A stretch of DNA of 64,000 nt, from assembly GCF_000241265.1 (NCBI RefSeq), contig NZ_BAEE01000064.1, positions 1 to 64,000 on the forward strand, read 5' to 3'. Under the pieces are notes generated by a model. The model saw nothing but the letters and a program-made list of their open reading frames with translations, had not been told where the DNA came from and did no database searches. Of the stretch, positions 3,871 to 41,816 are shown in pieces. Position 1 is the stretch's first letter, and each line of letters begins with the position of its first letter. Source of the DNA: Gordonia araii NBRC 100433. Its GTDB lineage: Bacteria; Actinomycetota; Actinomycetes; Mycobacteriales; Mycobacteriaceae. The translations under genes were made by a program, and so were the position numbers.

Positions 3871-4290
3871 CCCTGTTACGTCACTGTGACGCAATGAGCA
3901 AGGCTAGCTGGTTATACCGGAGCGGCGGGGCGGGCGTCGAATGGTCCGATGCAACCGTGGCGAGCGCCGGCGTCGGCGGCCGAGCCTGGCAGGAACAGGC
4001 CGACGGCCCGCGCGGCAGACGTGACGCCGTCAGGTAATCGCGGAAGCGCGCCGCCATATAGGTCGGCGAGACGTCGGGGCCGTCGCGGAAGCCGCAGCTG
4101 TGTGGATTGGACAATCAATCGGTCGGCTGCCAGGAAAACCCTGCGTTCATCGTGGTCAGACAACTGGTAACGAGACGTGTTGAAGTGGGACGAGTAGCTG
4201 GCCCCGTCCAGACCGCGGCCGAGGGAGCCCTGCCGACCCTGGACTCTGGACGTACGTCGCCCGTGATTGTCGGCACCGTTCGCTAGATTT
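3871..4290. other. Non-coding or decayed stretch, no convincing gene
   Basis: About 420 bases without a recognisable gene. Several frames stay open on both strands, but their translations are Arg/Pro/Ser-rich and look like GC-rich noise. A 6-1-6 palindrome CGTCACTGTGACG sits at 3879-3891, just after the TetR remnant, and could be a hairpin or an old operator. A TAGATT hexamer at 4284-4289 could be the -10 element of the following gene. Confidence 0.5.
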
Positions 4291-4323
4291 GGATGTGGTC
4301 CCGCACCGTGCAGGACCACATCC
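4291..4323 (+). promoter_or_regulatory. Perfect 11-bp inverted repeat in the leader of the 4337 gene
   Basis: Arms GGATGTGGTCC (4291-4301) and GGACCACATCC (4313-4323) are exact reverse complements around an 11-base loop that itself contains GCAC-C-GTGC. The repeat ends 3 bases before the GGGAGG ribosome binding site (4326-4331) of the gene starting at 4337. It can act as a repressor operator or as an RNA hairpin controlling ribosome access. With a -10-like TAGATT at 4284-4289 the transcript would start within the left arm. Confidence 0.7.
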
Positions 4324-4336
4324 CAGGGAGGTGTCG

Positions 4337-4822
4337 ATGGAACCCGTAACCCTGATTGTCGCGGCGATCGCGCTCGGCGCGACGGACGGTGCGCGTGAGA
4401 CCACGAAACTGGCAATCGGCGACGCCTACGCGGCCGTGAAGGGCTGGATCACGAACCGGTACAGCTCCGTGACCGCGGAGGTCGAGGGGCTAGAGCAGGA
4501 GCCAGAGGAAGAGCTCCGCCGCGCACTTCTCGCGAAGAAGCTCGAACAGGCGGGTGCTGGCGACGACGTCGAGCTGCTGGGGCTTGCTCAGTCGGTGTTG
4601 ACAGCCGTTGAGGAGCAGGCTCCCGAGTTGCCGGCCACCGTCGGCGTGGTGATCCGCCGCGCGTCGGTTGGGGGTGATATCGAGGTCGTAGATGTGGCTG
4701 TCGACGGCGGGAGTGGAGTTGTCGCCGAGGACGTGGCGGCTGGTGGCGATCTGCGGATCGGCAAAGTCGCAGCGCGTGCCCCGCAGGAGCCGCCCCACCC
4801 TACCCAGGCGCGGGAGCAGTAG
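4337..4822 (+). CDS. Small protein of the actinobacterial conflict-system type, function unknown
   Basis: 161 residues from ATG 4337, behind GGGAGG. The N-terminus (MEPVTLIVAAIALGATDGA, then a helix with DAYAAVKGWI) resembles the start of many short actinobacterial proteins found beside NLR/STAND-type effectors. Residues about 45-95 are charged and helical. Residues about 100-150 form short Gly-Asp beta repeats (VGGDIEVV, GGDLRIGKV). No enzyme motif is seen. The frame stops at 4820-4822, but the next frame carries on without a start codon, so this may be the front half of one broken gene. Function is inferred only from the general family look. Confidence 0.55.
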   Translation: MEPVTLIVAAIALGATDGARETTKLAIGDAYAAVKGWITNRYSSVTAEVEGLEQEPEEELRRALLAKKLEQAGAGDDVELLGLAQSVLTAVEEQAPELPATVGVVIRRASVGGDIEVVDVAVDGGSGVVAEDVAAGGDLRIGKVAARAPQEPPHPTQAREQ

Positions 4823-5487
4823 ACAGTCCGTCTGCTTCCGCGCACAACTTCACCTCGAACCAGCGCAACGTTATCGCTGGGCGGGATAACAACACGTACT
4901 ATTCGGTCGGCGCGACGGAGACGGGCAACAGTGGTGGCCGCATCCGGGCAGTAACGGCGTCGGCCAAGCCGGTGCCTATCGGTCGAGGTTTGTGGACCGT
5001 CACTGTGAACAACGCGAGTTCGGGTCCGATCACGGACCTCGCAGTCGATGTGTACGCCGTTGATGGGGACGGCAACCGGCTGGAGGGTGTATGTCATCCG
5101 GCGAAGGGCAAGATCTCGCTACAGGAACTCTTCCGTGAGGGTTTGGCGGGTGGGATGAGCGGAACGCTTGATGCCATCGGCTCCCGCGCCAACTCGATAT
5201 ACCCGCCGGGGATGTTCGGTGTTCCGGCGAACCTCGGTTCCTACGGGGGGATGTTCTCGGATCACCTCATGGGTGCGCCTGGCCTCTCCTCGCTTCTTCA
5301 GAACGCGCAGAAGCAGATGGTCGACAAATACCCTGACGTGATCGCGCGTGATCAGTCAGCTGAGGTGATGTACAGCGCCCCCGGAGCAGCCGACGTACGG
5401 GTCGATCTCCAGTTCGCCGACGACATGGGCGACTTGTGGCGTCGACGGCACGGTAAGCAACCTGAACCGGTTATGGAGAACGAGTAG
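4822..5487 (+). CDS. Ig-like domain protein with N-terminal amyloid-like motif; start unresolved
   Basis: The frame is open from 4678 to the stop at 5487, with no ATG, GTG or TTG before GTG 4972. Yet the peptide before 4972 looks real: Pro/Ser-rich linker, then NVIAGRDNNTYYSVG (about 4882-4926), which resembles the Asn/Gly-rich RHIM-like or BASS amyloid motifs of bacterial conflict proteins. After 4972 comes a beta-rich part (LWTVTVNNASSGPITDLAVDV), a hydrophobic middle, and an ending VDLQFADDMGDLWRRR-G common in actinobacterial proteins of this class. The likely explanations are a single gene with the 4337 frame broken near 4780-4822, or a -1 frameshift. Confidence 0.5.
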   Translation, partial: DSPSASAHNFTSNQRNVIAGRDNNTYYSVGATETGNSGGRIRAVTASAKPVPIGRGLWTVTVNNASSGPITDLAVDVYAVDGDGNRLEGVCHPAKGKISLQELFREGLAGGMSGTLDAIGSRANSIYPPGMFGVPANLGSYGGMFSDHLMGAPGLSSLLQNAQKQMVDKYPDVIARDQSAEVMYSAPGAADVRVDLQFADDMGDLWRRRHGKQPEPVMENE

Positions 5488-5539
5488 GCCAAGTCTCCGA
5501 GTCCGACCCACGCCCGAAATGATAAGAACGCCATAACAC

Positions 5540-6430
5540 CTAATCGCAAGGCGCCAGACCTCGGTCAGTCGCCTCTGAGAACAGAGCCACTCGATGTCGA
5601 CGACTATGCCCACACAGACGCCCCCGAAGATTGCGCCCTTCACCCCGGATTTCGTCAAGGGCGTGTGCGACGTGCTTGCGCAGACAGACCATCCGGGACT
5701 GACCGGTTCCGAGATCGACTCCCTGCTCCAGATGGTGGGAGTCAGGCAGCGTGAACCGGGCGGCAACAAGCGCGACAGCCTGTACGTCACTCTCTACAAC
5801 GTCCAGGTTCGACAGCAAGCCGGCAACGTCGTTGGCGGATTTATCGCAAAGGCGATGAGTCCTGGCCGGTATGCCGCTCAGCCAGCTCGTTTCGACGAGC
5901 TGCGCGACCAGCTCAACGAGTTCCTCGTGTACTACAGCTACGCAGTTAACGAAGCGGGCAAGCTCGCATCCGGAGCGAGGGCATCCACAATCTCCGAGGG
6001 TGCCGCCCTGTTGGGCGAAGTGCTCGATCGACACGGCGATGAACACCGCGTGGGCGGTGAACAAGGCGGTGCCGTCATCGGCGGTGGCGGTCGCCTTAAG
6101 GTGCAGTTTGCGGCCGTCAATCTCCCGGACGTGGGCGCTGATGCGCAGGGGCCGGTGCAGCGGGACGGGGGCGAGGTAGTCGACGGTGAGGCTCCGGGTC
6201 ACTGCCGGGGTGCGGGCGATCCAGAGGCCGAAGCCGAACAGGTCGTCGCAGGCGGCGGCCACTGCTCCGCCGTGCGCGAGGCCGGGCGCACCGATGTGGC
6301 GTTCGCCGAACGTCACATCGGTGTAGACCTCGTCGCCGGAGCGGAACACCACCAGTTGCAGGCCGGCGGGATTGTCTGGCCCGCACCCCATGCAGGTCGG
6401 CGAGTGCGGCGGCAGCGGTAGCTGGGTCAC
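5540..6430 (-). CDS. PaaI-type hotdog thioesterase with an aberrant C-terminal extension
   Basis: Residues 1 to about 145 are a normal hotdog thioesterase: CMGCGPDNPAGLQL, the helix motif GLAHGGAVAAACDDLFGFGLW and the strands RSLTVDYLAPVPLHRPL. This family hydrolyses acyl-CoA thioesters. After FIAVSIEHFAQQGGT the frame continues about 150 residues antisense to the truncated TIGR02391 gene, so the native stop has been lost and the predicted 296-residue length is artificial. The start overlaps the efflux pump stop by 4 bases (6427-6430), so it is the second gene of that operon. The hotdog domain may still fold. Confidence 0.75.
   Translation of the reverse strand: MTQLPLPPHSPTCMGCGPDNPAGLQLVVFRSGDEVYTDVTFGERHIGAPGLAHGGAVAAACDDLFGFGLWIARTPAVTRSLTVDYLAPVPLHRPLRISAHVREIDGRKLHLKATATADDGTALFTAHAVFIAVSIEHFAQQGGTLGDCGCPRSGCELARFVNCVAVVHEELVELVAQLVETSWLSGIPARTHRLCDKSANDVAGLLSNLDVVESDVQAVALVAARFTLPDSHHLEQGVDLGTGQSRMVCLRKHVAHALDEIRGEGRNLRGRLCGHSRRHRVALFSEATDRGLAPCD
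5594..6000 (+). pseudogene. TIGR02391/Ymh-type gene, 3' end lost
   Basis: From ATG 5594 about 135 residues read as a TIGR02391-family N-terminal part: LTGSEIDSLL, KRDSLYVTLYNVQVRQQAGNVV, FIAKAMSPGRYAAQP, LNEFLVYYSYAVNEAGKL and STISE. Family members go on to a C-terminal HEPN-type domain linked to abortive infection. Here the match ends near 5998, where the antisense of a thioesterase gene begins; the frame then runs on to 6421 with no resemblance to the family. The C-terminal, probably effector, half has been lost. The neighbouring amyloid-motif gene suggests an eroded defence patch. Confidence 0.65.
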
Positions 6431-8028
6431 GGGCGTTCCTTCTCGACGGTGCTGGCTAGCGGCGGGCGCGGGATCGACCTGCGCTGGGCCGGTTCAGCCG
6501 GGCTCCTCGATGCGCCTGCGTCCGGGGAAGCGCGGCCGGGCGCCCAGACCAGCAGGATCGCGGCACCCGCCGCCGCGATGAGTGCGAGGACGATCGCGGA
6601 CTGCTCGACGCCGTGCAGGAACGCGGACTTGGCGAAGTCGGCGAGTTGCTGGCCGGCCGGTCCCGCCCGGTCGGCGACCTCGAGGGCACCGGCGAGTGAG
6701 TCGGCGACCGGGCCCCGCGCCTCCGGTGGGAGCCGCGTGACCGCGGGGGCGATGTTGTGGCTGTACCCGGCGGCCAGGACACTGCCGGCGACCGCGATGC
6801 CGATCGCCGCGCCGACCTCGCGGGTGGCGTCGTTGACCGCCGCAGCGACCCCGTGCTTTTCGACCGCGGTGTCCGCGACGATAGCCGCCGTCGCCGGCGC
6901 CGCGGTCAGGCCCAGACCCGAGCTCATGATCAGCGTCGGCCACATCACGTCGAGGTAGGTGGAGTCCAAATCCAGCCGGCTGATGAAGTAGAACCCCGCG
7001 GCGATGGCGAGCAGACCGGTCACCGTCATCAACCGCAACCCCAGCCGGGTCGTCATCCACGGTGCGACCGCCGACAAGAGCACCAATGGCACCATCATCG
7101 GCGCCAAGGCCAGCGCTGAACCCAACGGGCTGTATCCAAAGATCAACTGCAGGTATTGGACGAGGACCAGGAAGACACCGAACGTCACCAGGAACTGGAT
7201 GGTGATGGAGAACGATCCGCTCCCGAAGCCACGACGGGCGAAGAACCGCACATCGAGCAGTGGATGATCCGCCCGCAACTCCCACACCACGAACACCCCT
7301 GTGGCCACCACCCCCAGCCCGAACCCGGTGACCACCACGGGATCCGACCAGCCGCGTACTGGGGCTTCGATGATGGCGAGCACCACTAGTCCGACCGCGA
7401 ACACCACCGCGACCGATCCGATCACATCCATCAGTGGCGGATTTTCCTGGCGGGATTCGGGAATGGTGAAGGCACACAACAGCAGAAACACCCCCACCGC
7501 GGTCAGGCCGACGAAGATTGACTGCCACGACCAGTAGTTGAGCAGCAGCCCCGACCCGAGAATCCCCAGCAGACCCCCGGACCCGGCGACCCCCGCCCAG
7601 ATCCCGACCGCACGCCCCCGCTGCTGCTCGGGGAATCCCGCAGTCAGGATCGACAGCGTGGACGGCATCATGAACGCCGCACCCACCCCGGCCGCTGCCC
7701 GCGCCGCGATCAACCACCACGGTGTCGATACCAACAGTGGCACCGCCGAGGCCAGCGAAAACAGCGCCAACCCCACGATCAGCACCGCCCGTCGGCCGTA
7801 GCGGTCACCCAGGGCCCCGGCGGGCAACACCAGACACGCCAGCACCAGCGTGTACCCGTCGACCACCCAGGTGAGCTGGGTTTGCGTCGCCCCGGTGGCC
7901 ACCGCAATGTTCGGAAGCGCGGTGTACAGGGCCGCCATTGAGGCGACCACCAGGGCCACCGACAGGCACGAGACCACCAACGTCCACTTCTGCGCCCGCG
8001 ACAGCAGCACTCGATCATCGGCGGTCAT
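6427..8028 (-). CDS. MFS multidrug efflux pump, DHA2 (14-TM) family
   Basis: 533 residues from ATG 8028, which is preceded by GGAGGTGG. It has about 14 hydrophobic helices, the MFS motif GDRYGRR between helices 2 and 3, and a motif-C-like VAGSGGLLGILGSGLLL in helix 5, marking a proton-driven drug exporter of the EmrB/QacA type in the inner membrane. It is divergent from a TetR regulator with a perfect inverted repeat between them, the usual arrangement for ligand-induced efflux. The thioesterase gene follows with a 4-base overlap. Upstream in-frame codons to 8130 are rejected because they cross the operator. Confidence 0.9.
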   Translation of the reverse strand: MTADDRVLLSRAQKWTLVVSCLSVALVVASMAALYTALPNIAVATGATQTQLTWVVDGYTLVLACLVLPAGALGDRYGRRAVLIVGLALFSLASAVPLLVSTPWWLIAARAAAGVGAAFMMPSTLSILTAGFPEQQRGRAVGIWAGVAGSGGLLGILGSGLLLNYWSWQSIFVGLTAVGVFLLLCAFTIPESRQENPPLMDVIGSVAVVFAVGLVVLAIIEAPVRGWSDPVVVTGFGLGVVATGVFVVWELRADHPLLDVRFFARRGFGSGSFSITIQFLVTFGVFLVLVQYLQLIFGYSPLGSALALAPMMVPLVLLSAVAPWMTTRLGLRLMTVTGLLAIAAGFYFISRLDLDSTYLDVMWPTLIMSSGLGLTAAPATAAIVADTAVEKHGVAAAVNDATREVGAAIGIAVAGSVLAAGYSHNIAPAVTRLPPEARGPVADSLAGALEVADRAGPAGQQLADFAKSAFLHGVEQSAIVLALIAAAGAAILLVWAPGRASPDAGASRSPAEPAQRRSIPRPPLASTVEKERP

Positions 8029-8044
8029 GCAGCCACCTCCACTT

Positions 8045-8065
8045 AACGCTACAGTTGGTAGCGTT
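8045..8065. promoter_or_regulatory. TetR operator between efflux pump and regulator
   Basis: Perfect 8-5-8 inverted repeat, AACGCTAC (8045-8052) and GTAGCGTT (8058-8065), placed 17 bases before the efflux pump start and 85-105 bases before the regulator start. Symmetry, length and position are typical of a TetR dimer site controlling both divergent promoters. Confidence 0.8.
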
Positions 8066-8149
8066 CCACTACTATGAGTACCACAATGCGGGGTGCGGGG
8101 ATAGTGCCTGCGACTGATCCGAGGGCACAATTACGAGGTGGGCGAAGAG

Positions 8150-8821
8150 ATGATCAACCAGAACTCCGACGACGACGAGGACCGGCTCGTGGATCCCCGG
8201 AAGGCACGCTCACGCGCACGACTGCTCGACGCGGCGACGTCCCTGCTCTCGACCGGCGGTATCGAGGCCGTCACGATCGACGCGGTCACCAAGGCGTCCA
8301 AGGTCGCGCGGACTACCCTCTACCGGCACTTCACCGACAGCACCCAGCTCCTGGCCGCGGCGTTCGAGCGTCTGCTTCCCCCGGTCACCGCGCCGCCGGC
8401 GTCCGGAACGATCCGTGAACAGTTGATCAAACTGCTGGACCGTCAGGCCAAGCTCATCGAGGAAGCCCCCGCCCAATTGACGATGCTCGGGTGGCTCGCC
8501 CTCGGGTCCGCCCAATCCGGCACGGCCGAGGCGACATCGCATCCCGAAGAAGACCGCAACCCGGTCAGTTCCCTTCGCGCACGGGTGGTCAACCAATACC
8601 GCGAACCGTTCGACCGGATCCTGGGCAGCCCCGAAGCCCAGCAAGAGCTCGGTCGCTTCGACACCAATCTCGCCCTGACCCAACTCGTCGGACCCATCGT
8701 CTTCACCCGACTCACTGCACTCCCGCCGATCGGCCCGGCTGAACGACAGCAACTCGTCGACGACTTTCTCGCTGCACGCTCCGCGCAACGCGCGCTGACA
8801 GTGACCCGCACTGATCTCTGA
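8150..8821 (+). CDS. TetR-family regulator of the divergent efflux pump
   Basis: 223 residues from ATG 8150. The N-terminal HTH is clear (RARLLDAATSLLSTGGIEAVTIDAVTKASKVARTTLYRHFTDSTQLL); the C-terminal ligand-binding part is all helical. It probably represses the MFS pump and itself through the repeat at 8045-8065 until a drug-like ligand binds. GTG at 8138 is an alternative start but has its GAGG directly against the codon; ATG 8150 has GGGCGAAGAG in front. A decayed HEPN-like gene ends against its 3' side. Confidence 0.87.
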   Translation: MINQNSDDDEDRLVDPRKARSRARLLDAATSLLSTGGIEAVTIDAVTKASKVARTTLYRHFTDSTQLLAAAFERLLPPVTAPPASGTIREQLIKLLDRQAKLIEEAPAQLTMLGWLALGSAQSGTAEATSHPEEDRNPVSSLRARVVNQYREPFDRILGSPEAQQELGRFDTNLALTQLVGPIVFTRLTALPPIGPAERQQLVDDFLAARSAQRALTVTRTDL

Positions 8822-8827
8822 TTCAGC

Positions 8828-8847
8828 ACCCGCCCGAGGCGGCGGGT
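8828..8847 (+). terminator. Hairpin after the TetR gene
   Basis: ACCCGCC (8828-8834) and GGCGGGT (8841-8847) form a 7-bp GC stem 6 bases after the TetR stop. No T-tract follows, which is common for actinobacterial intrinsic terminators. It may also stop transcription arriving on the other strand from the recombinase operon. Confidence 0.5.
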
Positions 8848-8859
8848 CGTCAAGGACCC

Positions 8860-9818
8860 CAATCTCTTGCCCGGCTCCAGAGCGGTGTCCTCGGCGGCTT
8901 TTCTCAGACGCTCGCTCAAAATCGTTGCACCAAAGCTCAGCTCCAGCGAATAATTCATGTACCGAATGTCGGTGGCACGGAACAACGCGGCCTTCCCGTT
9001 CGTGTACAGGTCGTTGTTGTTCTGATATCGAAAACGTTTGTCCTGATTAGGGAAATCAATCTTGATCGGGCCATCACCGGGCCCAAGGATGCCTTGCAAA
9101 CCGGCCCATCGAAGCCCACATGGTTCGAGGGAGCGCCGACTGGAGCATCACATTTGTTTCTCGGTCGAGGCGCTTGGTAACCGCGAGCACAGCGACCATT
9201 TCTCCATGCCCAAACTCGATCCTGTCGCCAACAGATAGCGTCGTCGGGTCTCGATGAGCGAGGGCGATCCAGCCATCTGTTAGCGGCCGAGTCCAACCTC
9301 GCACTGCATCAATCAACTGTTGACGCACGATTCCACCATTATGGATCACATCATTGCGCATCCAACGCAACGCGTCGATGTAGGCGATCATATCGGTTGT
9401 GTACTCACCACCGGAGGCATCCGCAATATTCTGATGCAGCTCATTAAGATTGGCCTTCGCCTTTGCGGCGGAACAGCACCCGGCGTTGTGTAGCATCTTG
9501 GCGCAGGTTCGCAGGTAGTCCTCGTGAAGTGACAATACGTAGGGAACCGACATCATCCCCAGATGGGAATCTGCCGCAGATAGGATCTCAGCAGCACTTT
9601 CAGACCGTAAATTAAATCGCTTGATATGTTCGACGTTCGGAAAAGATCTCAGGCAACATGCGCTCTGATCCGAGAGTGAGCTGTAAGAAGTGGGCGGATA
9701 ATTGAGCACCGGCAAGCAGCCCCATCACAGCATTGTTTGCTGCATCTTTTCGGGCTTCATACTGCCGGTGAATCTTGAAGCGTGCAACAGCACTCTTAGG
9801 TGGACCTGATCTAGACAT
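8860..9818 (-). pseudogene. HEPN-like gene, broken by two frameshifts
   Basis: Three minus-strand frames join into one plausible protein: 9818 to about 9644 (MSRSGPPKSAVARFK...LPEIF), 9640 to about 9090 (PNVEHIKRF...MWASMGRF), and about 9090 downward (GPGDGPIKIDFPNQDKRF...SERLRKAAEDT). The first join needs one T removed from a TTTT run (AAAA at 9641-9644 on the plus strand); the second needs one base removed within 9082-9102. The middle part holds RNDVIH (Arg codon 9356-9358, His codon 9341-9343), which matches the Rx4-6H catalytic motif of HEPN RNases. It is visibly more AT-rich than its neighbours. It is the last gene of the recombinase operon. Its 3' limit is uncertain. Confidence 0.55.
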
Positions 9819-9874
9819 GGTTACACCCCGACTGCGCCGATACATTTGCTGAATGCGTGGCGGCCCATCCTTCC

Positions 9875-11338
9875 TTAGACATTGATATCTCCATCGATCG
9901 CTGATATGTACTGGGCATATGTCGCTGCTGACGCCACAGCGTGTCGCTCGATGGTGGCAGGGGAGTAGCCGAGTGTGTCGGCAAGGATCGCGGCGGGCGC
10001 GAGTTTGGTGAGTTCGTGCAGGGTGCCGAGCCGGGCGGCGCGCGTGCCGAACGTCGACTTCAGCCGGTTCCGTAGGTGGCCTGGGTTGATGTGTTGGCCG
10101 GGGACGTAGCCGCGGAATACCCAGTTTGTGGCCGGGTGGGCGGCGGTGTTCGCCCGTTCCCCGGCGAGGTAACGGAACGGTTCGTCGAGCGGTGCGGGTA
10201 GAGCGACGGCGATGTCGCCAAGAGTGACGGTCACGAGTTCATCGGAAACGATGACGCAGTCCCAGGTGAGTTTGACGACCCGGTCGATCTGCTGGCCGAA
10301 GACGAGCACCAAGATCGCTGCAGCTCGGTCCCGTGGATTCAGTGCCGGTTGGTTTGACGTAATGCTGTCGACGGCGTCTTGCTGGGCCTCGGCACTCATC
10401 TTCGGGCTGGTTCCGCGACGATGAGGTGTCATCGTTAGGTCTACGGCGACCAGCTTGGTCGTGATCGCCCACGCAAGGAACCGGATGGCGAACTCTCGTG
10501 TGCTCGGGCCTTCGGATTGCCATGCGTCCAGATCGGGTTGGGATAGGTCGCCGATCAAGACGTCCCGGTCGGTGAGCCAATTGAGGAATTCGATTGTGAC
10601 GGTGACAGTTTGCTTAGATCGTAGGAACGTGCCGTGCGACACCGACTTCATCGAGTGCATCTGCCGCAGGTGGTGCCAACGAATGTAGCGGTTAGCGATG
10701 TCGCGATGTTCCGCCGATTTCAGGCGGTCGAGGGCGTCGTTGGACCAGTCGATGTAACGGTGGAGCAATCCATCCCTGGGCGGCAGGATCTGGTGTGTGA
10801 CAAGGAGTTCTCGGACGTATTCTCGGGTGCGCGATCGGGGGAGTCCGTCGACCGCATCGTGGGTAACGAGCGGGGTGCGGGCCAGCTCGGCTAGGAACGC
10901 CGTGACATGTTCTTGGTTGATCCAGGTCAGGCCGCTGTTGGCTCGTTTCATCGACTTCAGGGCAGTTGCAAAGGGGTTCAGCTCCTCGTTGATGACACCG
11001 GTCTCTGGATTTGTCAGCAATCGGTCGACGGTCGACCCCAGGACGCATCGCCAGCAGCGTCCCTGTGCGTAGAGTTCATCCTCGGCGCCGCACACAACGC
11101 AGTCGACGTTGAGTTTGATCCCCGCGCATTTGCGGCACGCCGGTTGGCCATTGATAATTCCTGGTAGTACTCCATCGTGACCGCACGGGCACACACCCCG
11201 GGTACGTTTGGCTGCTTGGTAGCAGTAGCCGCACACCCCGAGACCCTGCCAAGTGACGACACATTCTCGGTGCTCACCGCATCGGTCGCACGGGACCTCC
11301 CATCGCTGTGAGTCTTGGGGTTTACGTGGTCTTGCCAT
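9875..11338 (-). CDS. Zinc-ribbon protein with degenerate tyrosine-recombinase domain
   Basis: 487 residues from ATG 11338. The first 100 residues hold six Cys pairs (C17-x2-C20, C36-x2-C39, C50-x-C52, C68-x2-C71, C80-x2-C83, C95-x2-C98), enough for three zinc ribbons. The middle is a helical SAM-like region. The C-terminal 180 residues follow the integrase fold (ILVLVFGQQIDRVVKLTWDCV...ILADTLGYSPATIERHA...TYAQYI) but lack the box-I Arg and the HxxR pair, so it is probably not a catalytic recombinase. Its start overlaps the XRE gene by 17 bases. A structural or targeting partner of the intact recombinase at 11684-12817 is the likely role (inference). Confidence 0.75.
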   Translation of the reverse strand: MARPRKPQDSQRWEVPCDRCGEHRECVVTWQGLGVCGYCYQAAKRTRGVCPCGHDGVLPGIINGQPACRKCAGIKLNVDCVVCGAEDELYAQGRCWRCVLGSTVDRLLTNPETGVINEELNPFATALKSMKRANSGLTWINQEHVTAFLAELARTPLVTHDAVDGLPRSRTREYVRELLVTHQILPPRDGLLHRYIDWSNDALDRLKSAEHRDIANRYIRWHHLRQMHSMKSVSHGTFLRSKQTVTVTIEFLNWLTDRDVLIGDLSQPDLDAWQSEGPSTREFAIRFLAWAITTKLVAVDLTMTPHRRGTSPKMSAEAQQDAVDSITSNQPALNPRDRAAAILVLVFGQQIDRVVKLTWDCVIVSDELVTVTLGDIAVALPAPLDEPFRYLAGERANTAAHPATNWVFRGYVPGQHINPGHLRNRLKSTFGTRAARLGTLHELTKLAPAAILADTLGYSPATIERHAVASAATYAQYISAIDGDINV

Positions 11339-11687
11339 CGCCATCATCGCTACGGACGACGCGGATTCGGCGGGCAACGGAGCGCTTCTCACCAATGCCG
11401 AGATCCGCTGGGCTGGCTGGTGCGTCCGCCGTAGCTGCAGCACGCATCTCCACGTACGGCTCGAACAGATCGTTAGGCGTGCATTCAAGGATGTCGCATA
11501 ACGCGGCGAACGTGCGGGCAGGGATCCGCTCGGGTGTGCCGGTCACCAGTCGGTGGACCTGAGCATTCGACAGGTTGATACCGCGAGACTTCAGCAACGG
11601 GATGAGTTCCGTTGTCTTCCAGAGGTTGTGATCAGCCATCCGCTGGCGCAGATTCCAGTGATAGCCAACCCGACGTTGCTCGCTCAC
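11322..11687 (-). CDS. XRE-type helix-turn-helix protein of the recombinase operon
   Basis: 121 residues from GTG 11687, which overlaps the recombinase stop (GTGA, 11684-11687). The HTH lies at about residues 25-75: LWKTTELIPLLKSRGINLSNAQVHRLVTGTPERIPARTFAALCDILECTPNDLFEPY, the Cro/CI-like form (YozG type) with the ending CTPNDL. The C-terminal 40 residues are basic and probably disordered. It may regulate the operon or direct the recombinase to its site. It always sits between the other two genes here, with both junctions overlapping. Confidence 0.8.
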   Translation of the reverse strand: MSEQRRVGYHWNLRQRMADHNLWKTTELIPLLKSRGINLSNAQVHRLVTGTPERIPARTFAALCDILECTPNDLFEPYVEMRAAATADAPASPADLGIGEKRSVARRIRVVRSDDGDGKTT

Positions 11688-12817
11688 ATGCCCTTCCCTG
11701 CATCTTTTTCGTCACGTGTGACGATTCGTTGCTGGATCATCCGTTGGATGGTCTTCTGTTTAAAGTCTGCCGAGACCGAGGTGTAGAGCGCAGTGGTCGA
11801 TGAGTAGGCGTGGCCAACCTGTTGCTGGACAAACATCGGGTCGTACCCGGCCTCGAGGAGATGAGTGACATAGGAGTGACGCAGACAGTGCATCTTCAAC
11901 TCTGTCGGCAGCCCAGCCAGTTCGCGGACCGTAGTGAAAGTGCGATTGAAGTTGCGGATGCCCGTGGCGCCGGCGCGTTCCGACGGCCACAGCGAAGCCG
12001 AGCGGTCCGCTGTGGCGAACTGTTCGCGCCCCTGCGGCGAGAGCCAATGACCAAGAAGATCGACCACCCAGTCAAACTCAGGCACCGTGAGAACAGTGCG
12101 ACGGCGCGGTCCCGACCCCGACATACCTTTGGCGTAGCGAACCTGAACAGCGCCATAGCGGCCGTACTTGCCTACGTGCGGATTTGGGCCGAAGTCGTGG
12201 TAGTCGAGCATGGAAAGTTCCCGACGGCGCAAACCGTAGGCGTAGCACACCTTGAACGCAGTGGAGTCTCGCATCAGTGGGAGCCAGCGCTTCGAGCCTT
12301 TGGCGAACTCTCGATCGACGAGATCATCGCAGGCATCGAAGAATGTCTGCAACTCAGTCTGAGTGAAGCTGCGCCGGTCCGCCGGAATGGCGTCATCGGT
12401 CTTGTGACGCGGCGTGTTCCACTCGAACACGACTTGGGCGGGAACGTCGTCAAATGCTTTGCTGCAGAACGCAGCCCAACCATACCTTTCGTCAGTGACG
12501 TAATAGCAGAAGGCCCTGATCGTGCCGGCGTTCGCGCGCAGCGTCGACACCGAAACCGCCTTGGGGCCGGTGCGTCGATCTGCCAGAAACTCATCGACAT
12601 GGATAGGCTGCCACGCCCACGGGTACTCGTTCGAGTGCTCCTGAAAACGAGACACCAGGCTGCACGATGACTGGATGAACGGCACGCCGAGTCCACGGGC
12701 CAGCATTTGCGCTCGCCAGCCATCCAGCATCGCCTCGAAGACGCGGTCCTCGGGCCGCAGTAGACCGACGACACCGTTCGACAGAAACTCTGGTAGCCGA
12801 CCCGGAACACTCTGCAT
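11684..12817 (-). CDS. Tyrosine recombinase / integrase, catalytic
   Basis: 377 residues from ATG 12817. All catalytic residues are visible: Arg197 (YGLRRREL), Lys230 (RYAKG), His310 and Arg313 (HCLRHS), His336 (QVGHAY) and the nucleophile Tyr345 (TALYTSV). The N-terminal 150 residues form the core-binding domain. It cuts and rejoins DNA through a 3'-phosphotyrosine. ATG 12847 is an alternative start but falls inside an inverted repeat; TACACT 7 bases before ATG 12817 suggests a leaderless transcript. It heads a coupled operon with the XRE and zinc-ribbon genes. Confidence 0.9.
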   Translation of the reverse strand: MQSVPGRLPEFLSNGVVGLLRPEDRVFEAMLDGWRAQMLARGLGVPFIQSSCSLVSRFQEHSNEYPWAWQPIHVDEFLADRRTGPKAVSVSTLRANAGTIRAFCYYVTDERYGWAAFCSKAFDDVPAQVVFEWNTPRHKTDDAIPADRRSFTQTELQTFFDACDDLVDREFAKGSKRWLPLMRDSTAFKVCYAYGLRRRELSMLDYHDFGPNPHVGKYGRYGAVQVRYAKGMSGSGPRRRTVLTVPEFDWVVDLLGHWLSPQGREQFATADRSASLWPSERAGATGIRNFNRTFTTVRELAGLPTELKMHCLRHSYVTHLLEAGYDPMFVQQQVGHAYSSTTALYTSVSADFKQKTIQRMIQQRIVTRDEKDAGKGM

Positions 12818-12841
12818 GAACACAAGTGTAGCGCGAGAATC

Positions 12842-12974
12842 TCTCATCTGTTTGCATAAACAGATGCTGATCTGCGCACTCGATCAACACGGCAGCCCTC
12901 GATGCGATGCCGCCATGCCATGCGGCCTGCGATTTCATTCAAGATCCGGTGGGACGGGTCTTCTCATCTGTTTG
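12842..12974. repeat. Recombination-site-like repeats at the recombinase promoter
   Basis: CATCTGTTT (12845-12853) and AAACAGATG (12858-12866) form a perfect 9-bp inverted repeat with a 4-base spacer GCAT. The 13-base TCTCATCTGTTTG at 12842-12854 recurs exactly at 12962-12974, 120 bases away in the same orientation. A short-armed inverted repeat plus an extra arm copy next to an integrase gene is the usual layout of a recombinase core site with an accessory site; it can also serve as an autoregulatory operator. The 12867-13051 gap contains nothing else recognisable. Confidence 0.55.
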
Positions 12975-13051
12975 AACTCGTCTCCTTTTTATGCCGATAA
13001 GATACATTATGTCAAGTAACGTTCGGTGCGCCCCGCCCCTACGAAATCGGA

Positions 13052-13498
13052 CTAGTCCCCGTCTCCGCCGCCGCCGACGGAGTCCGGGTGTGGGACTGGC
13101 CGCACCTGCAGTTGAGGGATTCCCGCAAAATCTCCGGGGCTGCACGTGTACAACGACAAGCCGTGTGAGATGGCGGTTGCCGCGATGAGCGCATCGTAGG
13201 CGCGTGCGGCGGGCTTCCGACCTGCTGCCCGAAGCGAGGCTGCTACCGCGCCGAATGCTCGCGCGCTCTCCGCATCGAACGGAACGACGTCGAAATCAGC
13301 CTCTGCCTGCTGTAGATGTTGCTGACGTGCGCTCCTTTCTGAGTCAGTCGATGCGACGTTCGGTCCCACTGACAATTCAGCGAGAGTGATGGCGCTAATC
13401 ACCGATTCGTCAGGCAAGTTGTCTGGGTCGGACAGACGTCCAAGCAGAATCACGGTGGACGTATCGAGCATTCCCCTGCTGTTGGATTCCTCGCTCAT
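13052..13498 (-). CDS. vapC: VapC-type PIN-domain toxin
   Basis: 148 residues. PIN acidic residues are present: Asp12 (MLDTSTVIL), Glu41 (TLAELSVG), Asp102 (AYDALIAATA) and Asp123 (SPGDFAGI). Such toxins cleave tRNA or rRNA with Mg2+. The gene overlaps the antitoxin stop by 4 bases (13495-13498). A start at Met10 (13471) is possible, but the overlap supports the longer form. The C-terminus is Gly/Asp rich (SVGGGGDGD). Confidence 0.92.
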   Translation of the reverse strand: MSEESNSRGMLDTSTVILLGRLSDPDNLPDESVISAITLAELSVGPNVASTDSERSARQQHLQQAEADFDVVPFDAESARAFGAVAASLRAAGRKPAARAYDALIAATAISHGLSLYTCSPGDFAGIPQLQVRPVPHPDSVGGGGDGD

Positions 13499-13734
13499 AG
13501 CGAGGAATCCAACACGCTGTCGATGTCCGAGCGCAGCGCGTCAGGATCAACGTGCGGCAGATGGCGGCGGCGGCGGATTAGCTCGGCAGCACTTGCCGCG
13601 CGCCGCGGCAGTGGGTTGAGCATGGCGACTGGATCGCCGTCCCGGGTCACTATGATCCGTTCTCCACGTTCGACCCGCCGTAGCACTTCCCCACCGGCGT
13701 TGCGTAGGTCCCGGACGCTCACCACCTCGTTCAT
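13495..13734 (-). CDS. vapB: VapB/Phd-type antitoxin
   Basis: 79 residues. The N-terminal Phd/YefM fold is seen as VSVRDLRNAGGEVLRRVERGERIIVTRDGDPVAML, followed by an Arg-rich region and an acidic C-terminal tail that would wrap the VapC active site. TACAGT lies 6 bases before the ATG, so the transcript is probably leaderless. A palindrome immediately upstream is the likely autoregulatory site. Confidence 0.92.
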   Translation of the reverse strand: MNEVVSVRDLRNAGGEVLRRVERGERIIVTRDGDPVAMLNPLPRRAASAAELIRRRRHLPHVDPDALRSDIDSVLDSSL

Positions 13735-41448: not shown

Positions 41449-41545
41449 GTCGACTCCTCTCCTGCGCTCCACAGCGCTGCCATGGCGAGTCTGCGGGGAG
41501 GGGCGCGAGGGCGCCGAGGCGGGACGGCTGACGCGCCGCCGCGGT

Positions 41546-41694
41546 GTTCTCTCACATCCGGACTATGACCGTCGGCTCCGGATTCACACCGGATCTGCTG
41601 TCCCCGCAATCAGCCGTGGCCTATGCGGGCGCTCGCGGGCTCGATCGAAATTCGATCATCACCGCCGGTAGGGAATTGCACCCTGCCCCGAGAA
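41546..41694 (-). ncRNA. FMN riboswitch (RFN element)
   Basis: Read on the minus strand, the conserved blocks occur in order: GGGGCAGGGTGCAATTCCC and TACCGGCGGT at the 5' side, GAGCCCGCGAGC, then CAGATCCGGTGTGAATCCGG and AGCCGACGGT, and at the 3' end AGTCCGGATG-GAGAGAAC. FMN binding closes the junction. A GC-rich leader (41449-41545) follows, which can form a hairpin before the ribE ribosome binding site, so ribE-ribBA-ribH should be switched off by excess flavin. Confidence 0.95.
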
Positions 41695-41816
41695 CTCTGT
41701 AGAAAACGCTAGCACGCGAGGCAAATCCGCTGCAGCCGCGACCGGCTTCCGATCACGCCGAACGCAAGTTCGCGACCCTCGCCTGCGTGCGGTAGGGCTG
41801 TGCCATGCTTTCGGTC

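Follow-up and report, generated by a model that had tools for sequence, protein, structure and literature searches.

A three-protein tyrosine-recombinase element that very probably inserts beside dif in Gordonia araii and related actinobacteria

We analysed a window of 64,000 nucleotides from Gordonia araii NBRC 100433 (contig NZ_BAEE01000064.1, positions 1 to 64,000), in which three overlapping genes encode a catalytic tyrosine recombinase, a small helix-turn-helix (HTH) protein and a zinc-ribbon protein. Nearly all circular chromosomes and many plasmids have a dif site, which lies in the terminus region and is required for cell division. Our comparisons make it very likely that the three proteins are the machine of a transposable element that inserts exactly beside dif. 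Across related sequences the element appears as a discrete unit with conserved ends whose recombinase gene always adjoins dif, and its insertion point, as placed by comparison of replicons, falls between two bases 4 bp past the TTATCGGC (XerC-side) arm of dif or of a plasmid dif-like site. By the same kind of comparison a sister family, B, inserts at the opposite, TTATGTCAA (XerD-side) arm, the window element belonging to family A; these arm names are assigned by analogy with the XerD consensus TTATGTTAAAT printed in PMC10132070.

The element and its dif site in the window

The element begins 4 bp past the TTATCGGC arm of the window dif (Table 1). Its right-edge sequence, TTGACATAATGTATCTTATCGGC, is fitted on the opposite strand by the actinobacterial dif of Frankia, CACGCCGATAATGCACATTATGTCAAGT, as given in PMC3025954. 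The pattern TTGACATAA-N6-TTATCGGC with at most one mismatch was found in 56 of 59 Gordonia genomes (85 matches in total, a single copy in 40 genomes and two to five in 16), and the reversed control gave none in these 59 genomes among the matches listed. The only such match in the window genome (G000) is the one adjoining the trio.

The left boundary, 4162, is where homology to Gordonia spumicola (G020, evidently strain NBRC 107696) begins, and the spacer flanking dif finishes at 12989. G. spumicola has window positions 4162–13018 at 99.8–100% identity, broken by two insertions; alignments to three further Gordonia genomes (G022, G045 and G014) all end at the right edge, short matches to G022 and G014 end at the left edge, and the 3′ junction at 4162 is identical in G. 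spumicola, G022 and G014. Both ends are consistent with the Rhodococcus empty-site comparison and the family end map described below. The two insertions in the G. spumicola copy (L021 539–2003 and 6051–7444) are flanked by 8-bp and 5-bp repeats of element sequence, and the first recurs in G045 at 97.8% identity. Neither the element ends nor the dif core at 12993–13015 figured in the original prediction, which was made from the window sequence without database searches.

Table 1. Features of the putative element and its target in the G. araii window
Feature	Coordinates	Strand	Remarks
Whole putative mobile element	4162..12988	-	8,827 bp; 5′ end 12988, 3′ end 4162
Element 5′ end with inverted sites GACGAGT ... 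CCCGTC	12953..12988	-	Inverted repeat at 58 family 5′ ends
Element 3′ end	4162..4197	-	Minus-strand reading CTCGTCCCACTTCAACACGTCTCGTTACCAGTT; conserved 3′ motif, 0 mismatches
Host dif, insertion target, outside element	12990..13017	-	28 bp; 23-mer core 12993-13015
Catalytic tyrosine recombinase	11684..12847	-	387 aa; PF00589 E 2.9e-17
Small Cro/C1-type HTH protein	11322..11687	-	121 aa; HTH_26 E 2.1e-15
Zinc-ribbon protein, putative degenerate recombinase-like C-terminus	9875..11338	-	487 aa; 12 Cys; PF00589 in relative P0094
Cargo: broken HEPN-like gene	9074..9845	-	Two overlapping frames, 9612-9845 and 9074-9715
Cargo: TetR regulator	8138..8821	+	PF00440 E 4.1e-11
Cargo: MFS transporter	6427..8130	-	PF07690 E 2.2e-39
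Cargo: thioesterase-superfamily (4HBT) protein	5540..6430	-	PF03061 E 1.3e-8

Empty and occupied sites

A relative of the element in Rhodococcus qingshengii, with a zinc-ribbon protein 89% identical to that of the window, occupies a site on plasmids NZ_CP054210.1 and NZ_CP096565.1 that is empty on NZ_CP011297.1, NZ_CP072109.1, NZ_CP070871.1 and NZ_CP017300.1, the flanks being 99.9–100% identical. The empty plasmids read ATGACATAATATAGGTTATCGGCGAAC and then GTATGGGCGG (in short, TTATCGGCGAAC^GTATGG), and the occupied ones read the identical 27 bases, followed by AAGAAGGTCGAG ... CGTTACCAGTT and then GTATGGGCGG (in short, TTATCGGCGAAC/AAGAAGG...CCAGTT/GTATGG, slashes marking the junctions). The insertion is thus clean, 4 bases past TTATCGGC and 1 base outside the 28-bp dif, with dif unchanged and no target duplication.

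Two R. qingshengii strains together have six copies of this element, 99.0–99.98% identical in pairwise comparison, which lie on different plasmids and occupy four distinct dif-like sites. Two of the plasmid loci (L231 and L232) have different dif-like sites on the left and share the element together with more than 10 kb of right flank, so a larger, composite or stacked unit may have moved there. Likewise, genome G056 has two 14.2-kb copies that are 99.94% identical, one at a chromosomal dif and the other at a dif-like site. As judged from these comparisons the element moves between replicons and species, which bears out the mobility that had been proposed for the window module, with empty and occupied sites, several replicons and two species in evidence. 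A locus fixed at one site in all relatives had been named as a finding that would speak against mobility; what we found is that elements change replicon and yet always lie beside the same type of site, dif. No clean empty site was found for the Gordonia chromosome itself, and the empty-site proof comes from the Rhodococcus plasmids; for family B no empty site was found.

The three proteins

All three genes lie on the minus strand. Residues R207, K240, H320, R323, H346 and Y355 of the recombinase are each kept in 57–58 of 58 aligned relatives, so that the intact catalytic set of the original prediction holds, its residue numbers being 10 lower since they were counted from the second ATG. The best solved relative is E. 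coli XerD (E 8.6e-10) and the best NCBIfam match XerC (73.6 bits, far below the family cut-off of 335), and by such matches the protein is nearest to XerC/XerD. In the HTH protein the Pfam scan found no integrase domain, and Pfam and NCBIfam together gave no TnpC-like family at E ≤0.1.

The zinc-ribbon protein has twelve cysteines (17, 20, 36, 39, 50, 52, 68, 71, 80, 83, 95 and 98), invariant in 50 of 50 aligned relatives; both this count and the gene overlaps (GTGA at 11684–11687 between the recombinase and HTH genes, and 17 bases at 11322–11338 between the HTH and zinc-ribbon genes) are exactly as first described. The integrase-like domain also claimed for this protein is weakly supported. 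One of three scanned relatives passes the PF00589 cut-off (34.2 versus 27.1 bits) and two fall just under it (26.2 and 26.9), and the protein reads H441-E-L-T444 where the alignment suggests HxxR; the window protein itself, in contrast, had no Pfam integrase match, and hhalign gave no match between the zinc-ribbon and recombinase families (probability 0.1%, with low-diversity alignments). The zinc-ribbon family profile matched no solved structure at E ≤1. Relatives of this protein number at least 514 at E 0.001 among 7,997 scored candidates; several are named 'Fis family transcriptional regulator' by NCBI, and 'integrase' appears in some sources.

Association with dif and the two mirrored families

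A scan of GTDB genomes with the zinc-ribbon family gave 78 named loci, in genera that include Arthrobacter, Sinomonas, Rhodococcus, Mycolicibacterium, Nocardioides, Dietzia, Isoptericola and Georgenia. Before counting, 24 of these were dropped (12 lacking the 5′ end of the zinc-ribbon gene and 12 with too little upstream DNA), and among the remaining 54 a dif-like site matching at least 14 of 17 arm positions stood in a single orientation 1.5–1.9 kb before the zinc-ribbon gene in 45, against scores of at most 12 in reverse orientation and at most 11 in shuffled DNA. L135, where dif is further off, is the 46th dif-associated locus. The trio recurs in the same order in 69 of 88 loci with a zinc-ribbon gene match, as the original prediction had anticipated; this open reading frame scan was a loose one that also counts shortened genes. 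Among 72,556 plasmid records 242 contained relatives, and 50,697 phage records contained none.

A second, diverged trio, with a zinc-ribbon protein about 33% identical to that of the first, faces the first trio head to head across dif in G. spumicola and G045; the two represent types A and B, and such pairs around one dif also occur on plasmids of R. qingshengii and Arthrobacter. Our Gordonia census covered 69 of the 85 dif-pattern sites. Trio genes lay on the side of TTATCGGC at 11 of them and were closest to family A in every case; at 14 they lay on the side of TTGACATAA, and there family B was always the closest. Occupation of both sides was seen in G020 and G045 and, in the form of fragments, in G040. 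In a tree of zinc-ribbon proteins a branch with 100/100 support (100% of 200 bootstraps) separates the 22 A rows from all others, while the 18 B rows together with four rows set aside make up a 22-row branch (98/95 support). The four had been moved by hand to 'other' before the count, G007 because its trio is interrupted, L279 because of a short frame and no dif, and L271 and L276 because their contigs are too short; the rows labelled B, taken without these four, need 5 changes on the tree.

Several observations weigh against insertion beside dif by a three-protein machine. Three of the 54 loci have a degenerate dif (L105 and L159 with 13 and L146 with 12 of 17 positions) and five have none: L120, with a run of N before the recombinase gene; L155, L169 and L178, in which the trio is incomplete; and L166, which has the genes and lacks the 5′ end of the element. 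L279 falls in the B branch with a shortened zinc-ribbon frame and no dif within 4.9 kb. Only three independent 3′ flanks are represented among the four R. qingshengii targets, the right flank of L231 and L232 being common to both, and the left flanks of these two are short in their records. Only 42 of 95 sequences have the 3′ motif described below, the recombinase-like C-terminal fold of the zinc-ribbon protein is weakly supported, and GC skew within the 64-kb window marks no terminus.

At the class level a zinc-ribbon relative at E 1e-20 was present in 44 of 394 sampled genomes, not all of them dif-associated. Among 20 class-level homologous loci, four were B-type at dif, two were too short and 14, L279 included, had no dif nearby; dif targeting is therefore a property of the two clades and not of the superfamily, other branches of which must, on this evidence, use other sites. 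Related trios with long zinc-ribbon proteins or from other clades, and with no dif nearby, include those of L282–L288 and others.

Ends, size and stacking of the elements

At 58 5′ ends the inverted repeat has a mean perfect arm of 6.8 nt, versus 3.7 in shuffled sequence, with matched variants such as GACGAGT/ACTCGTC and CGGGAGT/ACTCCCG; these repeats are probably paired protein-binding sites. For the 3′ end, a first search based on inverted-repeat matches scored for the most part no higher than shuffled sequence. The 3′ motif CAACACGTCYCGYTRCCAG was spotted by eye from inverted-repeat matches and copies and then scanned, allowing at most three mismatches on the trio strand and at most two on the other; at least three of its 42 occurrences are spurious, and the shuffled control gave 5 matches in 1.63 Mb. 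In family B the elements of G020 and G043 are near-identical over ~18.6 kb apart from insertions, and no terminal motif was recognised in this comparison.

Both ends could be mapped in 29 of 92 sequences, with lengths of 3,435–11,698 bp. Thirteen of the 29 are 3,879 bp or less (3.4–3.9 kb), which leaves little room beyond the trio, and 11 of these 13 have all three genes in the loose open reading frame scan; cargo is therefore optional. In four of the 29 the 5′ end of another element follows immediately, the arrangement to be expected if each newcomer lands between dif and the copy already there. At 12 census sites an A-type 5′ end was seen with no trio genes inside 4.2 kb, by a signature picked after inspection of the sequences. 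To the right of dif, G029 (L191) has a perfect 3′ motif ~0.75 kb from dif and G037 (L195) has three perfect 3′ motifs, in both cases with no trio genes nearby, so trio-less copies, non-autonomous or stacked, may exist there.

Alternative explanations

The location of the insertions recalls IMEX elements, which integrate at dif by means of a dif mimic and the host Xer enzymes (PMC9765430 and PMC5357621). That host XerC and XerD integrate the present element at dif is nonetheless improbable: exchange in IMEX falls inside dif, whereas here the junction is outside the dif core and arms, the mapped 3′ ends have no dif half, and the element has its own recombinase with conserved catalytic residues. 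XerC/XerD may nevertheless assist by providing a landing platform.

We find it no easier to accept that the module mainly carries defence genes, as in the original reading of 'small defence-type cargo'. A HEPN-like gene does follow the trio in the window, and genes annotated as a Pycsar effector and cyclase precede one Paenarthrobacter trio, although these lie outside the mapped element. The 13 nearly trio-only elements argue against this, as do the restriction of the HEPN-like gene, among 103 loci scanned, to G. spumicola as the only other species, and the PADLOC search, in which none of nine cargo proteins matched at E 0.01 or better.

Very unlikely, in our judgement, is a role of the trio in chromosome dimer resolution, as a host accessory lying beside dif by chance. 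Its location and the similarity of its recombinase to XerC/XerD would suit such a role, but only 11 A-type and 14 B-type trio sites occur among the 69 census sites, and the trio moves, is multi-copy and is also plasmid-borne. We give almost no credence to the idea that the dif-like sequence is the element's own left-end resolution site, carried to arbitrary targets, which would account for the constant distance from dif to the recombinase gene in most loci and is contradicted by the four empty plasmids with the same dif and no element, by four different dif-like sequences beside one near-identical element and by the lack of any other dif match in G000.

A model for insertion beside dif

For a transposable element that targets the edge of dif, we propose that the catalytic recombinase would cut and rejoin DNA at both element ends and at the target, and that the zinc-ribbon pseudo-recombinase and the HTH protein would bind the element ends or the dif arm, conferring targeting. 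Target recognition within the complex may plausibly fall to the zinc-ribbon protein, as was first suggested for the window. The substrate would probably be an excised or copied circle, the joined ends of which (CCAGTT/AAGAAGG in Rhodococcus) would recombine with the edge of dif. The far half of the target shows no conservation in the listed sites of the Gordonia census and the Rhodococcus comparison, and specificity must therefore be supplied for the most part by the dif arm or by Xer proteins on it. With specificity set in this way by the conserved dif arm, and not by the DNA beyond it, a later arrival could enter between dif and a copy inserted earlier, so that elements would stack.

More tentatively, and as one possibility among others, we suggest that the sister trios split dif between them, A acting on the XerC-side arm and B on the XerD-side arm, with the zinc-ribbon or HTH subunit docking on the arm or on bound XerC/XerD. 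The dimer-resolution complex would then serve as a landing beacon for which one specific half-site is enough, with no homology required in the other half of the target, so that elements could stack on both sides while dif is spared.

Comparison with known systems

Among the literature matches listed, none reported a tyrosine-recombinase trio beside dif, subscription papers being mostly outside the search. The nearest behaviour is that of the IS1202 family and the nearest machinery that of strand-biased circularizing integrative elements (SE), GInt islands, Tn554 and RIT elements (PMC10214605, PMC5385486, PMC3414803, PMC8138268).

The IS1202-family 'dif site hunters' of Acinetobacter (ISAjo2 and ISAba71) insert in a single orientation next to dif and plasmid dif sites and leave dif intact; they are 1.5 kb long, encode one DDE transposase, lie 5 bp from the XerC site and make 5-bp target duplications (PMC10132070). 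Our elements share the oriented insertion next to dif (46 of 54 loci, and the 11 A and 14 B sides), a likeness of behaviour and not of membership: the trio has no match to a transposase, which in IS1202 is ~441–457 residues, and makes no duplication, and it differs in using tyrosine recombinases, in inserting 1 bp outside dif, in having one family per arm and in its actinobacterial hosts.

SE of Gammaproteobacteria have a small end operon (intA, tfp, intB and srap) for two catalytic recombinases, Srap and Tfp, the last with a recombinase fold lacking the catalytic residues, as well as inverted terminal motifs and a short footprint; dif is not named as a target in the parts of PMC10214605 covered. 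The end operon, a putative degenerate recombinase-fold protein and the inverted terminal motifs recur in our element, but with three genes and one catalytic recombinase. A short footprint may be common to both: SE have one of 6 bp, and in our element 4 target bases plus a short element end separate the dif arm from the inverted site. GInt islands begin with a 5′ recombination operon, may or may not have cargo, and have a conserved 3′ end and one degenerate integrase-like protein, features that recur here, the last of them putatively, yet they carry four genes (ginABCD), three of them integrase-like, and the first such islands lie in an ABC-transporter gene flanked by imperfect repeats of 10–11 nt (PMC5385486); ours has three genes, a content recurrent in the family.

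Tn554 and its actinobacterial relatives are site-specific three-gene tyrosine-recombinase transposons with two catalytic recombinases, TnpA and TnpB, plus TnpC, and RIT elements have three overlapping genes in one operon for three recombinases (PMC3414803). Against Tn554, we find one catalytic recombinase, a zinc-ribbon pseudo-recombinase and, where TnpC would be, an HTH_26 protein. The trio resembles RIT in its three overlapping genes in one operon, while the catalytic set occurs only in the 387-residue protein, so that the original decision to keep it apart from RIT was sound. None of SE, GInt, Tn554 and RIT has this set of genes, and we therefore regard the elements as combining a new gene composition with a new target rule for a multi-protein tyrosine-recombinase transposon.

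Such dif-edge transposons would explain divergent DNA beside dif among related actinobacteria, and the dif-edge rule is a sequence rule by which the elements and their cargo could be found automatically. The trio is a simple system in which to study how a recombinase-like subunit without catalytic activity guides an active partner, and as a tyrosine-recombinase counterpart of the Acinetobacter DDE 'dif hunters' it suggests that dif-edge targeting has multiple origins.

Cargo and neighbouring features

The gene following the trio in the window was described as frameshifted and HEPN-like, and its frames are indeed broken, the RNDVIH motif standing in the second of them (9074–9715), whereas the G. 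spumicola copy has a single open frame. The HEPN identity, on the other hand, is weak, the matches being to DUF4145 (E 0.12) and, for the window piece, to CARF_HEPN of PADLOC (E 0.015); among 68 database relatives one is named Abi-like and one Apea-like HEPN. The block with the TetR and MFS genes (6004–8846) is 98–99% identical elsewhere in G043, G014 and G023, with its own boundaries. The window cargo is therefore a mosaic, in which this block appears to be a separately moving piece. The cargo of other elements includes a HAD hydrolase, a luciferase-like monooxygenase, insertion-sequence transposases and proteins of no assigned function.

Directly across dif from the element, at 13052–13734, is a PIN/Phd-type toxin-antitoxin pair, and DNA resembling this region sits ~280 nt from dif in G028. 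Elsewhere in the window, and unrelated to the element, is an FMN riboswitch at 41542–41699 (E 9.9e-26).

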